Shown here piece after piece: positions 3,326-64,000 of a stretch of 64,000 bases of DNA. The position numbers and the translations under genes are program-made. Numbering within the stretch: position 1 is the stretch's first letter; every line of letters begins with the position of its first letter. The stretch covers positions 744,001 through 808,000 of the forward strand of contig NZ_CP015104.1 of NCBI RefSeq assembly GCF_002214525.1. Reading direction: 5' to 3'. The notes below the pieces were generated by a model that did not search any database, was not told the DNA's origin, and saw nothing but the letters and a program-made list of their open reading frames with translations. Source of the DNA: Thermococcus sp. P6. GTDB lineage: Archaea; Methanobacteriota_B; Thermococci; Thermococcales; Thermococcaceae.

Positions 3326-3383
3326 GCATCTTCTCTTCCCAACCTTTTTAAAATCCGGGGGGAACCTTCCCGGGGTGGTAAGG

Positions 3384-3716
3384 ATGATGGGGATGAATCC
3401 AAGGCAGATGAAGAAGCTCATGCGCCAGATGGGCATTAAGATGGAAGAACTGGAAGGCGTAAGGGAAGTGGTGATACGCCTTGAAAACAGGGAGATAATA
3501 CTGAGGGACCCGGCCGTTACGGTGATAACCGCTCAAGGGGAGAAGAGCTACCAGATAGTTCCCGGGAGCGAGGAGGTAAGGCAAACGCTGAACATCTCCG
3601 AGGAAGACATAAAGCTCGTCATGGAGCAGGCGGGCGTTGACTACGACACCGCCAGAAAAGCGCTGGAAGAAACAAAGGGGGACCTTGCGGAGGCCATCCT
3701 GAAACTTCAGGAGTGA
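3384..3716 (+). CDS. nac: Nascent polypeptide-associated complex protein
   Basis: About 110 residues; homodimeric archaeal NAC binds ribosomes and emerging chains. A NAC beta-barrel segment ([19 protein letters not shown] through YQIVPGSEE) is followed by a C-terminal UBA domain ([22 protein letters not shown]). The GTG at 3375 overlaps the GGTGG ribosome site, so I place the start at ATG 3384 (3387 is also possible). A TATA-like CTTTTTAAAATCC at about 3344-3356 lies roughly 30 bp upstream. Confidence 0.9.
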
Positions 3717-3724
3717 CCCTTGAT

Positions 3725-4180
3725 TTAAATTTTAACAACTGCAGGGACCGTACAGGTTCCCCTTTCGTTCCATGTCTTCCCATTCATAGCGGATTTAACC
3801 GTCGAATTGCAGGGGAGTACCTCTCCACCGTTCTTCTCAAAGAAGGCCAAATACTCCTCAATTCTGGCATTGTCTGCGGGAGTGAGGTTCAGGTTTCCAT
3901 TCTGGAGGTCGAAGAAGGCGAGGTATGTGGTGTTTCCCTTTCGCACTATGGCCTCGGCCCGGAGGACCCTGCAGTCCGGACAATCACCGGAGACCCACAG
4001 GGTGATCTGCGGCTCGATCTCATTGAGGTTATTATCGTAAAGCAGGACCTTATCCATGGCCAGTGCTATTGGATCGGGGGTGGGCTTTGATGGTGAAGAA
4101 TGTATTTTCAAAAAGAATAACCCGCAAAACGTCAAAACTAAAAGGGATAAAAGGAAGATCCGCTTATGGTTACCTTTCAT
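3725..4180 (-). CDS. Small exported protein with a CPDC motif
   Basis: A protein of about 151 residues with an N-terminal hydrophobic anchor (RIFLLSLLVLTFCGLFFLKI) and an outside domain containing SGDCPDCRVLRAEA, a CxxC like that of thioredoxin-fold proteins. Two further cysteines occur near the C-terminus (VLPCNS, RGTCTV). I choose ATG 4180 over 4198 because the AAAGGGGG ribosome site lies between them. I do not recognise the family. A redox or disulfide role is only suggested by CPDC, and the segment around it is too short for a full thioredoxin fold. It is divergent from hflX and convergent with nac. Confidence 0.6.
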   Translation of the reverse strand: MKGNHKRIFLLSLLVLTFCGLFFLKIHSSPSKPTPDPIALAMDKVLLYDNNLNEIEPQITLWVSGDCPDCRVLRAEAIVRKGNTTYLAFFDLQNGNLNLTPADNARIEEYLAFFEKNGGEVLPCNSTVKSAMNGKTWNERGTCTVPAVVKI

Positions 4181-60368: not shown

Positions 60369-60728
60369 TCATTTGGCCGATTCAAGGGTCTTCTGGCTGA
60401 GGTAGGCCTTCAGGAACTCGATCCATGCGGTGTAGTAGCCCTTCTCGTACTCATCCCGGAACTCGTGCCCTACAATGTTCTCAAAGTGCTCGAGGAGTCT
60501 CTCCGCCTTTTCCCGATCGTGTTCCTCCAGCAGCTGAACTATCAGGGCATCGCCGACGTTCTCCTTAATGGCGCTCATAAACCCGTTCACGGCCTTGGAG
60601 TAGCCCGCACCCCATTCGTCAGAGCCGGCCATTTTTTGAAGCTTCTCGAGGTGGTTCTTCGCCCCTCTGAAGTCCCTCCTCAGCAAAGCGCGGAGGAACA
60701 TCTCCATCCTCATTTCCCTGGCTCGCAT
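60369..60728 (-). CDS. Small helical protein of unknown function
   Basis: 119 residues, charged and all-helical: MFLRALLRRDFRGAKNHLEKLQKMA, YSKAVNGFMSAIKENVGDAL, LLEEHDREKAERLLEHFENIVG, GYYTAWIEFLKAYLSQ. It begins at ATG 60728 after CCGGTGG; the frame upstream of this runs through the promoter. It resembles small conserved Thermococcales proteins of unknown function and may be co-transcribed with the glycosylase. Confidence 0.65.
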   Translation of the reverse strand: MRAREMRMEMFLRALLRRDFRGAKNHLEKLQKMAGSDEWGAGYSKAVNGFMSAIKENVGDALIVQLLEEHDREKAERLLEHFENIVGHEFRDEYEKGYYTAWIEFLKAYLSQKTLESAK

Positions 60729-60894
60729 CTCACCACCGGACCAATTTTGAGGGTACGCTTTTAACCTTACCGTCCACCCGGTGTTGCCCAAAACTGATCA
60801 TATATATGCAGGAAAATCTTCATATTTACGCAAAAGCTTTTATATGTCCCGGGGAAACGAACCCCAGTGGAAGACAAAGTAAGGAGGGTTTGAT

Positions 60895-63800
60895 GTGGAA
60901 GGCAGTGCTGGTGAAGTTCCAAGCGGTGAAAAGGAGTTTGAGCATCTCACAAAAAGGATCAGGGAGGTAATCGAGTTCCCTGAGATAAGCGAGGATGAGT
61001 TCAACGAGATGATGAAACGGGCCAGCAGGGCCTACGGTGGGCCCTTACCCCACAGGACTTACTCCCTCTGTCCAGAGACAAGACGGGTGGTGCCGGCCCT
61101 CGTATGGGAGAAGGACGGCAGGGTGTGGATAACGAAGCGCTGTCCGGAGGGCATGATAACCGGTCTCTACTACGAGGACGTTGAGCAGTACTACTGGTTC
61201 CAGAAGTGGAAGTTCGATTTCAAGATCACGAGTTCCAACGTCGAGAACACCGGTGCCAACTGTCCCCTCGATTGTGGATTATGCTCAAGGCACCGCTCCC
61301 ACACGAGCCTTTTGAACATAGTTCTGACGAACAGGTGCAACTTAAGCTGCTGGTATTGCTTCCCCAAGGACGAAGAGGCGGTTTTCAAAGTTAAGGACAG
61401 AGTGAGCATCCTGAAGTTCGAAGACCTTGCCAGAAGGTTTTCCTTTGAGAACAAAGTTGAAATCGACGGGTTCAAGGGGGAATACTCAACACCCGATGAC
61501 ATCTACGTCCTTACCTTCGAGGATGGACTGAGTAAGTGGACGAGACTAACCAAGTTCCTCAGAAGGAAACACGAGGGCAAGATCCTCAGGATAAGAACGA
61601 AGACGGGGAGAACGCTAAGGGTTACGCCCGAGCACAAGGTGTTCGTCCACGTGGACGGGAAGCTCGTAAAGAAGAGGGCCGACGAACTCGAACCGGGTGA
61701 CGAGTTGATTTCAACGTGGCGGATTCCGGAAAAAGATGGTACCTATACGATAGACCTGATCGAAGCATTTAAAGCCCTGCCTGAGGAAGAGAAGGAGAAG
61801 ACCTACGTTAGGGGCATAAAGGAAATCGACCTTTCCCCACTGAAGGAAGAATACGGGGATAGGATATACTCGTGGAAAGGTCAGGACTCAATGCCCCTAA
61901 GCGCTTTCTACAGGCTGAAGGTTTCCGGCGATTTCAGACTTGGAAGAGACGCCACCGACCACGAATTGCCCTCAAAACTTGAGATCACGCCCTCCTTTGC
62001 CAGACTCATCGGCTACTTCGTCTCGGACGGACACTACACCGACAAGGACGTTCGCATAACGGTTGGCCATGATGATGTTGAAAGGGACATTCTCTCGATC
62101 CTTGAGGAGCTCGGGGTTCCCCACAGTATTCTTCAAGCCGAAGGAAAGGCAAAGCAGATCGTGATTGGGAGCAGGTTGATGCGTCTCGTCTTTAAGTACG
62201 CCCTCGGGATTCCGGAGAAAGCCGAGAACAAGAGGCTTCCGAGAGACTTCCTCAGCTATCCGCAGGAAGTCAGGAGGGCGTTGCTTTCTGGCCTGCTCAA
62301 CGGCGATGGCTACGTCGTCAGGGGGGAGAGACATTTAAACGTTGGCTATGCCAGCGTCTCCCGCGGCCTCATAAGAGACATCCTCTATCTACTGGCATCC
62401 TTTGGGATATTCGCAAGGGTATACACCGTTGAAAAGGAAAAGGTCAAAGGGGCAAATCACGACCTCTACAGGGTATACGTGGCTGGGAAGGACCTCGAGA
62501 GGCTGGTTGAAATAGTCGAGCTCAGGGAAGGGCACAGGAAAAGACTTGGCGATGTCGGGGAGAGGAAACCCGCGAGGATAACGAAGGTCAGCGACTTCTA
62601 CCTCGATCCCGTGGAAGGTATTGAAGAGGAGGAGTACTCGGGATACGTTTACGACGTTGAGGTTGAGAACCCCGGGCACTCGTTCGTAGCCTCCGACGGT
62701 CTCCTGGTGAGCAACTGCTTTTTCTACGCCAAAGAGGGACAGCCGATATACGAGCCCACGTTAGAGCAGATAAGGATGATGCTCCGCAACGCAAAGAAGG
62801 AGGAGCCCATAGGGGCCAACGCAGTCCAGTTCACCGGGGGAGAACCAACGCTGAGGGACGATTTAATTGAGATAATAAAGATCGCCAGGGAAGAGGGTTA
62901 CGACCACGTGCAGCTCAACACCGATGGCATAAAGCTCGCCTTCGAGCCGGAACTGGTGAAGAAGATAAGGGAGGCTGGAGTCAACACGCTCTACATGAGC
63001 TACGACGGAATGACGCCCCAGACCAACTGGAAGAACCACTGGGAGGTCCCCCTGATCTTTGAGAACGTTAGAAAAGCTGGAGGGCCGGGCATAGTCCTCG
63101 TTCCAACGACCATAAGGAACGTGAACGACCACGAGCTCGGGGCAATAATAAACTTTGCCCTCAACAATCTGGACATCGTAAGGGGCGTTAACTTCCAGCC
63201 GATTTCCCTCGTTGGAAGGGTTCCGAAAAAGGAACGCCAGAGGTTCAGGATAACCATCCCCGGGGCAATAAAGAGGATAGAGGAGCAGACCCATGGAGCC
63301 ATAGCAAAGGGAGACTGGTATCCAATTCCCATAGCCGGACACATAGCGAGGTTCTTCGAGGCCTTCTCGGGAAGCAGATACTACATGACCTCCCACTTTG
63401 CGTGTGGTGCGGCAACCTACGTATTCCTTGACAGGGAGAAAAAGAGGGTCGTGCCGATAAGCAGGTTCCTTGACGTTGATGGCTTCGTCGAGTATCTGGA
63501 GAGCAAGGCCGAAGAGATAGAGGGCTGGAAGAAGATGGGCAAACTCCGCAAGCTCAAGCTCGGTGCCGAGATATTCATGAAGTTCAGGAGCTTCTACGAC
63601 GAGAAGTACGCCCCCAAGGGACTTGGAGTCCTCGACCTCATAAAGAACGCCTTCATCCACGGCAACTACGATGCCCTCGGAAAGTTCCACACGAACGCCC
63701 TCTTCCTCGGGATGATGCACTTCATGGACGAGTACAACTACGACGTCGAGAGGGTTGAACGCTGCGTTATCCACTACGCCATGCCTGACGGAAGGATCGT

Positions 63801-64000
63801 TCCCTTCTGTACCTTCAACGTCATTCCAGAGCTGTACAGGGACAAGGTGCAGGCCCAGTTCAGCTACTCGTGGGACGAATGGAAGGCCCTGCATCCGGAC
63901 TGGGACTACAAAAAGGACAAGTACATCAGGACCAAGGAGTTCGTCGAGAGGATGAAGAAGAGCGAGCTCTACAGGAAGACCTACATCGACATCGAGGACT
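60895..64000 (+). CDS. tes: Radical SAM protein, probably tetraether lipid synthase, interrupted by an intein (partial at window end)
   Basis: GTG 60895 follows GGAGGG by 6 bases and opens a frame still open at 64000. The host part belongs to COG1964. Residues include C59 (SLCPE), C83 (KRCPEG), C123/C127/C130 (CPLDCGLCSRH) and the radical SAM motif C148-x3-C152-x2-C155. After the intein come TGGEPTLRDDL, LNTDGIKLAF, CGAATYVF and RCVIHYAMPDGRIVPFCTF with further cysteines for extra clusters. In T. kodakarensis the Tes gene (GDGT-forming) lies near ligase and pantoate kinase, as here. Other COG1964 functions remain possible. Confidence 0.72.
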   Translation, partial: MEGSAGEVPSGEKEFEHLTKRIREVIEFPEISEDEFNEMMKRASRAYGGPLPHRTYSLCPETRRVVPALVWEKDGRVWITKRCPEGMITGLYYEDVEQYYWFQKWKFDFKITSSNVENTGANCPLDCGLCSRHRSHTSLLNIVLTNRCNLSCWYCFPKDEEAVFKVKDRVSILKFEDLARRFSFENKVEIDGFKGEYSTPDDIYVLTFEDGLSKWTRLTKFLRRKHEGKILRIRTKTGRTLRVTPEHKVFVHVDGKLVKKRADELEPGDELISTWRIPEKDGTYTIDLIEAFKALPEEEKEKTYVRGIKEIDLSPLKEEYGDRIYSWKGQDSMPLSAFYRLKVSGDFRLGRDATDHELPSKLEITPSFARLIGYFVSDGHYTDKDVRITVGHDDVERDILSILEELGVPHSILQAEGKAKQIVIGSRLMRLVFKYALGIPEKAENKRLPRDFLSYPQEVRRALLSGLLNGDGYVVRGERHLNVGYASVSRGLIRDILYLLASFGIFARVYTVEKEKVKGANHDLYRVYVAGKDLERLVEIVELREGHRKRLGDVGERKPARITKVSDFYLDPVEGIEEEEYSGYVYDVEVENPGHSFVASDGLLVSNCFFYAKEGQPIYEPTLEQIRMMLRNAKKEEPIGANAVQFTGGEPTLRDDLIEIIKIAREEGYDHVQLNTDGIKLAFEPELVKKIREAGVNTLYMSYDGMTPQTNWKNHWEVPLIFENVRKAGGPGIVLVPTTIRNVNDHELGAIINFALNNLDIVRGVNFQPISLVGRVPKKERQRFRITIPGAIKRIEEQTHGAIAKGDWYPIPIAGHIARFFEAFSGSRYYMTSHFACGAATYVFLDREKKRVVPISRFLDVDGFVEYLESKAEEIEGWKKMGKLRKLKLGAEIFMKFRSFYDEKYAPKGLGVLDLIKNAFIHGNYDALGKFHTNALFLGMMHFMDEYNYDVERVERCVIHYAMPDGRIVPFCTFNVIPELYRDKVQAQFSYSWDEWKALHPDWDYKKDKYIRTKEFVERMKKSELYRKTYIDIED
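61357..62715 (+). other. Intein with LAGLIDADG endonuclease, inserted at the third cysteine of the radical SAM motif
   Basis: 453 residues in frame. C1 (block A: CFPKDEEAVF) is followed by block B RVTPEHKVFV with T90 and H93. The two LAGLIDADG motifs are LIGYFVSDG (217-225) and LSGLLNGDG (310-318), with acidic D224 and D317. Block F is YDVEVENPGHSFV with H441, and block G is LLVSN ending in N453. The next codon is Cys, which restores the host CNLSCWYC-F. The penultimate residue is Ser452 instead of the usual His. Splicing follows from established intein chemistry; it has not been tested here. Confidence 0.93.

Follow-up and report, generated by a model that had tools for sequence, protein, structure and literature searches.

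The window analysed here, a 64,000-nucleotide stretch of the genome of Thermococcus sp. P6, ends within tes, a plus-strand gene whose single open frame runs from a GTG codon at 60895, closely preceded by GGAGG, to a stop codon at 64030–64032, beyond the window end. Its 1045-residue product is a precursor of the tetraether lipid synthase (Tes) that carries an intein. Tes joins archaeal membrane lipids into tetraethers and is the source of the membrane-spanning lipids that characterise heat-loving archaea. The gene is built from the following parts:

60895–64000, + strand: tes, tetraether lipid synthase precursor with intein (window part)
60895–61356, + strand: N-extein, 154 codons, C-terminal sequence ...CNLSCWY (from sequence and structure alignment)
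61336–61359, + strand: CNLSCWY followed by intein residue 1, with Cys-7, Cys-3 and intein Cys1 (from sequence)
61357–62715, + strand: class 1 intein, 453 residues, Cys1 to Asn453
61966–62565, + strand: LAGLIDADG homing endonuclease domain within the intein, limits approximate
62716–64000, + strand: C-extein (window part), whose first residue, Cys+1, is the third radical-SAM cluster ligand

The 5' neighbours of tes comprise an unidentified ORF, a UDG-family protein and Mrp antiporter subunits, none of them redox-related, and the idea of a redox-related neighbourhood was dropped on this ground. A 140-residue ORF divergent from tes (60369–60791, minus strand) lacks a Pfam match.

The assignment to Tes, made as probable in an earlier note on this DNA, holds. 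The protein matches the NCBIfam model NF045703 over its whole length (residues 5–1035) with 2103.9 bits against a cut-off of 1700, and NF045702 with 686 bits against a cut-off of 450; minus the insert, the exteins match the Tes crystal structure 7TOL at 1e-135. Tes carries two CxxxCxxC motifs (PMC8941075), and the window protein likewise has the radical-SAM CxxxCxxC aligned to 7TOL and another upstream. MoaA (GTP 3',8-cyclase) was rejected as the identity of the gene, since its models reach only 70–73 bits, below cut-offs of 284–325. The window protein is a Tes, and synthesis of GDGT from archaeol is its predicted activity. An intein-bearing Tes is already catalogued and known to annotators through NF045703 (rSAM_Tes_intein), from which the window protein shows no difference in insertion site or architecture; none of the open-access papers found to mention both inteins and tetraethers appears to concern an intein in Tes.

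The intein splits the radical-SAM motif immediately before its third Cys. The chain reads LTNRCNLSCWY up to the first junction, continues as the intein (CFPKDEE...GHSFVASDGLLVSN) from Cys1 at 61357–61359 to Ser452-Asn453 at 62710–62715, and resumes with the C-extein, CFFYAKEGQPIYEP, whose Cys+1 (62716–62718) opens the segment CFFYAKEG. The N-extein contains the first CxxxCxxC (CPLDCGLC) together with Cys 1 and 2 of the radical-SAM motif, and the Radical_SAM Pfam domain (PF04055, 2.7e-24) begins at the C-extein junction. The boundaries proposed in the earlier note are exact to the base, being fixed by intein-free relatives, and so is its placement of the element at the third cluster ligand: Cys+1 aligns with the third radical-SAM Cys of Tes (7TOL) and of MoaA in an alignment including 1TV7. 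The claim that the intein N-terminus replaces the third ligand in the precursor stands, with one nuance. Cys1 does occupy the third position, which leaves a readable CxxxCxxC string; what is lost in unspliced Tes is the link between the third-position Cys and the rest of the radical-SAM barrel.

The insert matches the Pfam domains Intein_splicing (PF14890, 9.7e-19) and LAGLIDADG_3 (PF14528, 1.5e-20), as well as PF05204 (1.4e-7). It has the residues of a class 1 intein, namely Cys1, T90 and H93 of block B, D433 of block F, the terminal N453 and Cys+1, and its splicing set is complete, with C1, T90, H93, D433, H441, S452 and N453 invariant in 29/29 allelic inteins. The penultimate residue of inteins is usually His; here it is Ser (S452). 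The endonuclease domain contains two LAGLIDADG motifs, LIGYFVSDG (residues 217–225) and LLSGLLNGDG (residues 309–318), and retains both catalytic acidic residues, D224 and D317. It is predicted to cut the intein-free site, an activity to which lateral transfer among relatives points indirectly. We infer that the window copy splices itself out and cuts in vivo. The next nearest inteins by profile, those of the DNA polymerase II large subunit and RNA polymerase A'' (PRK14715, PRK14898), have genome matches around 1e-35, but are at most about 28–30% identical and lie in different hosts and at different sites.

The genome, a single contig of 1.52 Mb that is 99% complete, encodes a single Tes, every other match falling far under the Tes cut-off, so that the intein-free second copy named in the earlier note as a reason to doubt a regulatory role is absent. 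Because the sole tes gene bears the intein, Tes activity in Thermococcus sp. P6 should require splicing. Three more intein-bearing genes, for family B DNA polymerase, MCM/CDC21 and ribonucleotide reductase, lie outside the window, at about 69.4 kb, 100.5 kb and 515 kb of contig C1.

The same insertion site was compared across archaea. In Thermococcaceae, 94 genomes were searched and 85 alleles resolved at the site; the intein is present in 17, every one at the same codon, and the remaining 68 read continuously as CNLxCWYCFFYA. The intein-free alleles that the earlier note had proposed to look for in other Thermococcus genomes are therefore the majority in this family. One Thermococcus genome (G024) appeared to have no Tes, an artefact of masking by a 32-kb run of N at 1,920,001–1,952,001. 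A scan of named genomes found same-site inteins, down to 44% identity, in an Archaeoglobaceae MAG, an Archaeoglobales MAG, several Desulfurococcales, a Brockarchaeota MAG and others. They occur in 3/57 Archaeoglobi genomes having Tes and in at least 5/175 genomes of the order of a Desulfurococcales MAG, the latter count including a 194-residue mini-intein (L174, in G280) with its splicing blocks present and its endonuclease lost. In another copy (L073, in G088) the endonuclease has decayed, both LAGLIDADG motifs being changed while the C-terminal splicing blocks are retained, and a third (L112) carries D317N. In both sequence and length, two intein-bearing Archaeoglobi Tes (L112 and L175) resemble those of Thermococcales and not the intein-free Tes found in their own class, which suggests whole-gene transfer or MAG misbinning; the Tes of a ‘Thermoproteota’ MAG (L107) is also Thermococcales-like, and the labels of several distant intein-bearing MAGs may be wrong. 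In the Archaeoglobales MAG (L114, QMZE01000184.1), a second intein-like insertion seems to lie in the same Tes frame at about 3356–3754, with a Ser right behind AVQL where relatives read TGGEP, the SAM-binding GGE motif; the contig end interrupts it. If real, it would place inteins in two cofactor-binding motifs of one enzyme.

Comparison of inteins with their exteins points to lateral movement. Explaining presence and absence along the extein tree takes 17 changes, and well-supported branches force at least 11 of these. Within Thermococcales, inteins are less alike than exteins (72% versus 84% identity), a relation that is reversed between Thermococcales and Desulfurococcales (57% versus 45%). 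A clade of Thermococcales and Archaeoglobi inteins is not rejected by an AU test (p 0.26), so the case for cross-phylum transfer rests chiefly on this reversal; a between-genus transfer of one intein (G085) is marginal (p 0.04). Two pairs show recent intein transfer in their synonymous divergence: G077/G076, with dS of 0.028 in the intein and 0.69 in the C-extein, and L113/L119, with dS of 0.51 in the intein and a saturated C-extein. Nucleotide identity is elevated over 60–120 bases flanking the G077/G076 intein, compatible with co-conversion. The window intein pairs in both trees with that of its nearest relative, G015, with dS of 0.91 in the intein and 0.81 in the C-extein, consistent with vertical descent; recent mobility is therefore evidenced for relatives of the window copy, not for the copy itself. 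For the endonuclease dN/dS is 0.03–0.14, and it is also low for the splicing region and for the C-extein. The coexistence of full, decayed and mini forms whose splicing residues never vary is what the life cycle of a homing intein leads one to expect, and the near-identical inteins in diverged hosts, the decayed endonucleases and the 194-residue form fit a homing parasite. The suggestion that insertion at this codon gives the homing site maximal protection goes too far: over 36 bp at the insertion point, nucleotide conservation stands at the 84th percentile of tes and residue conservation at the 79th, high but short of the top, and the site was accordingly rejected as the most conserved part of the gene.

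An intein at this position appears already to have been described from Pyrococcus abyssi under another host name. In the ‘MoaA’ intein of P. abyssi (Callahan et al. 2011), reviews describe a disulfide between N-extein Cys-3 and Cys1 that blocks splicing on oxidation (PMC10663303, PMC3922620). The genome G004 is P. abyssi GE5, as its second contig shows 100% identity to plasmid pGT5 across the 3400 bases compared. Among its intein-bearing genes, the sole radical-SAM host is Tes, whose precursor scores 2149 bits against the intein-containing Tes model and falls below the MoaA cut-off; the genuine MoaA of P. abyssi comes from a different gene, is 323 residues long, exceeds the archaeal MoaA cut-off and has no intein. 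By elimination, a tight argument though an indirect one, the published redox trap thus appears to reside in Tes, a connection that the papers searched were not seen to make. Except for the name given to the host, MoaA in the literature and Tes in the window, the two elements agree in site and in the layout of Cys-3, Cys1 and Cys+1, and their inteins are 71% identical; the window intein is apparently allelic to the published one. Cys-3 and Cys1 are present in the window copy at the trap site and may form the same disulfide.

The comparison establishes the anatomy of the element, its intact catalytic residues and its single host copy, and further the recurrence of the insertion site across many archaea, lateral transfer, graded loss of the endonuclease and which P. 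abyssi gene is the host. We regard one reading as very probable: a mobile class 1 LAGLIDADG intein that excises itself and spreads by homing, its redox sensitivity, if any, being most simply explained by where it sits. The intein interrupts tes directly after Tyr-1, with the third Cys of the radical-SAM CxxxCxxC on its far side. In the precursor, a thioester would form at Cys1, Cys+1 would attack it, Asn453 would cyclise and the exteins would be joined, giving the predicted junction peptide CNLSCWYCFFYAK and restoring the motif CNLSCWYCFFYA, which could then hold the [4Fe-4S] cluster. The endonuclease would cut the conserved site in intein-free alleles and so carry the element into them, and any redox sensitivity of the Cys-3/Cys1 pair would come with the landing site.

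The main competing view is that the intein persists as an adaptive redox switch, oxidation holding the precursor through a Cys-3/Cys1 disulfide and delaying production of an oxygen-labile radical-SAM enzyme until conditions are reducing, to the benefit of the host. The redox sensing proposed in the earlier note is plausible, having been published for the apparent P. abyssi allele whose host is here taken to be Tes (PMC10663303, PMC3922620), and Cys-3 and Cys1 are found in all copies, the Thermococcales ones lacking any other Cys. Stress-dependent or Fe-S-related splicing control has been proposed for the mycobacterial DnaB and SufB inteins (PMC6195587, PMC8891592), although their hosts are unrelated and, unlike the Tes intein, they do not precede a cluster-ligand Cys of a radical-SAM motif. 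The pair is, however, inevitable from the placement: a Cys-type intein just before the third Cys of CxxxCxxC automatically has Cys-3, Cys1 and Cys+1, and with them the chance of a disulfide. Since either cluster binding or the chemistry of splicing demands each of these Cys, their conservation cannot separate a switch from an accident of location, and it was set aside as evidence of regulation. Scarcity of other Cys was likewise discarded as a sign of tuning, the intein having one Cys in all Thermococcales copies but two to four in most of the distant ones. Cys is rare anyway in such proteins. Moreover, most relatives (68/85 alleles) do without the intein, near relatives differ (P. abyssi has it, the P. 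horikoshii-like G006 does not), and homing alone accounts for the distribution. An adaptive switch is therefore improbable in our estimate, and the same doubt attaches to regulation of Tes splicing in general, for which the case comes mostly from published work as reviewed. Slightly less credible still is the compound proposal that, the redox trap being in Tes and not in MoaA, redox or iron-sulfur state gates formation of the archaeal lipid monolayer post-translationally, by means of an intein that has reached several archaeal phyla at a single codon.

Far less probable is a gate operated by metal or by the cluster itself, in which Cys-7, Cys-3 and Cys1 of the precursor would bind a metal or nascent cluster and block Cys1 until its release, making splicing a report on iron-sulfur supply. 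Cys1 does fill the third CxxxCxxC position in the precursor, and zinc is reported to inhibit another intein reversibly (PMC7360933), but the remaining cluster site is in the C-extein, with the intein between them in the chain. A temperature sensor, with low temperature limiting Tes splicing and so tuning tetraether content, is more doubtful again: splicing of RadA inteins in Thermococcales is temperature-dependent (PMC10663303), yet inteins of hyperthermophiles commonly depend on heat, none of the features described here points to such a role, and the sequence comparison gave no specific support for the temperature sensing raised earlier. A dead insert that had lost splicing, and with it Tes in this strain, is highly improbable, since nothing was found in its favour and the splicing residues are whole and invariant in 29/29 copies, the frame is open throughout and dN/dS is low in the splicing region and C-extein.

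The element in tes is thus a mobile intein of the ordinary kind, striking for its position and already covered by an annotation library, and it yields one useful correction to the literature. At a single tes site, several archaeal groups harbour members of one intein family, among which full, decayed and mini versions occur together. If the P. abyssi redox trap belongs to Tes rather than to molybdenum-cofactor synthesis, its physiological meaning shifts and becomes testable in lipid biology; and in intein-bearing strains, each active Tes molecule should need prior splicing.
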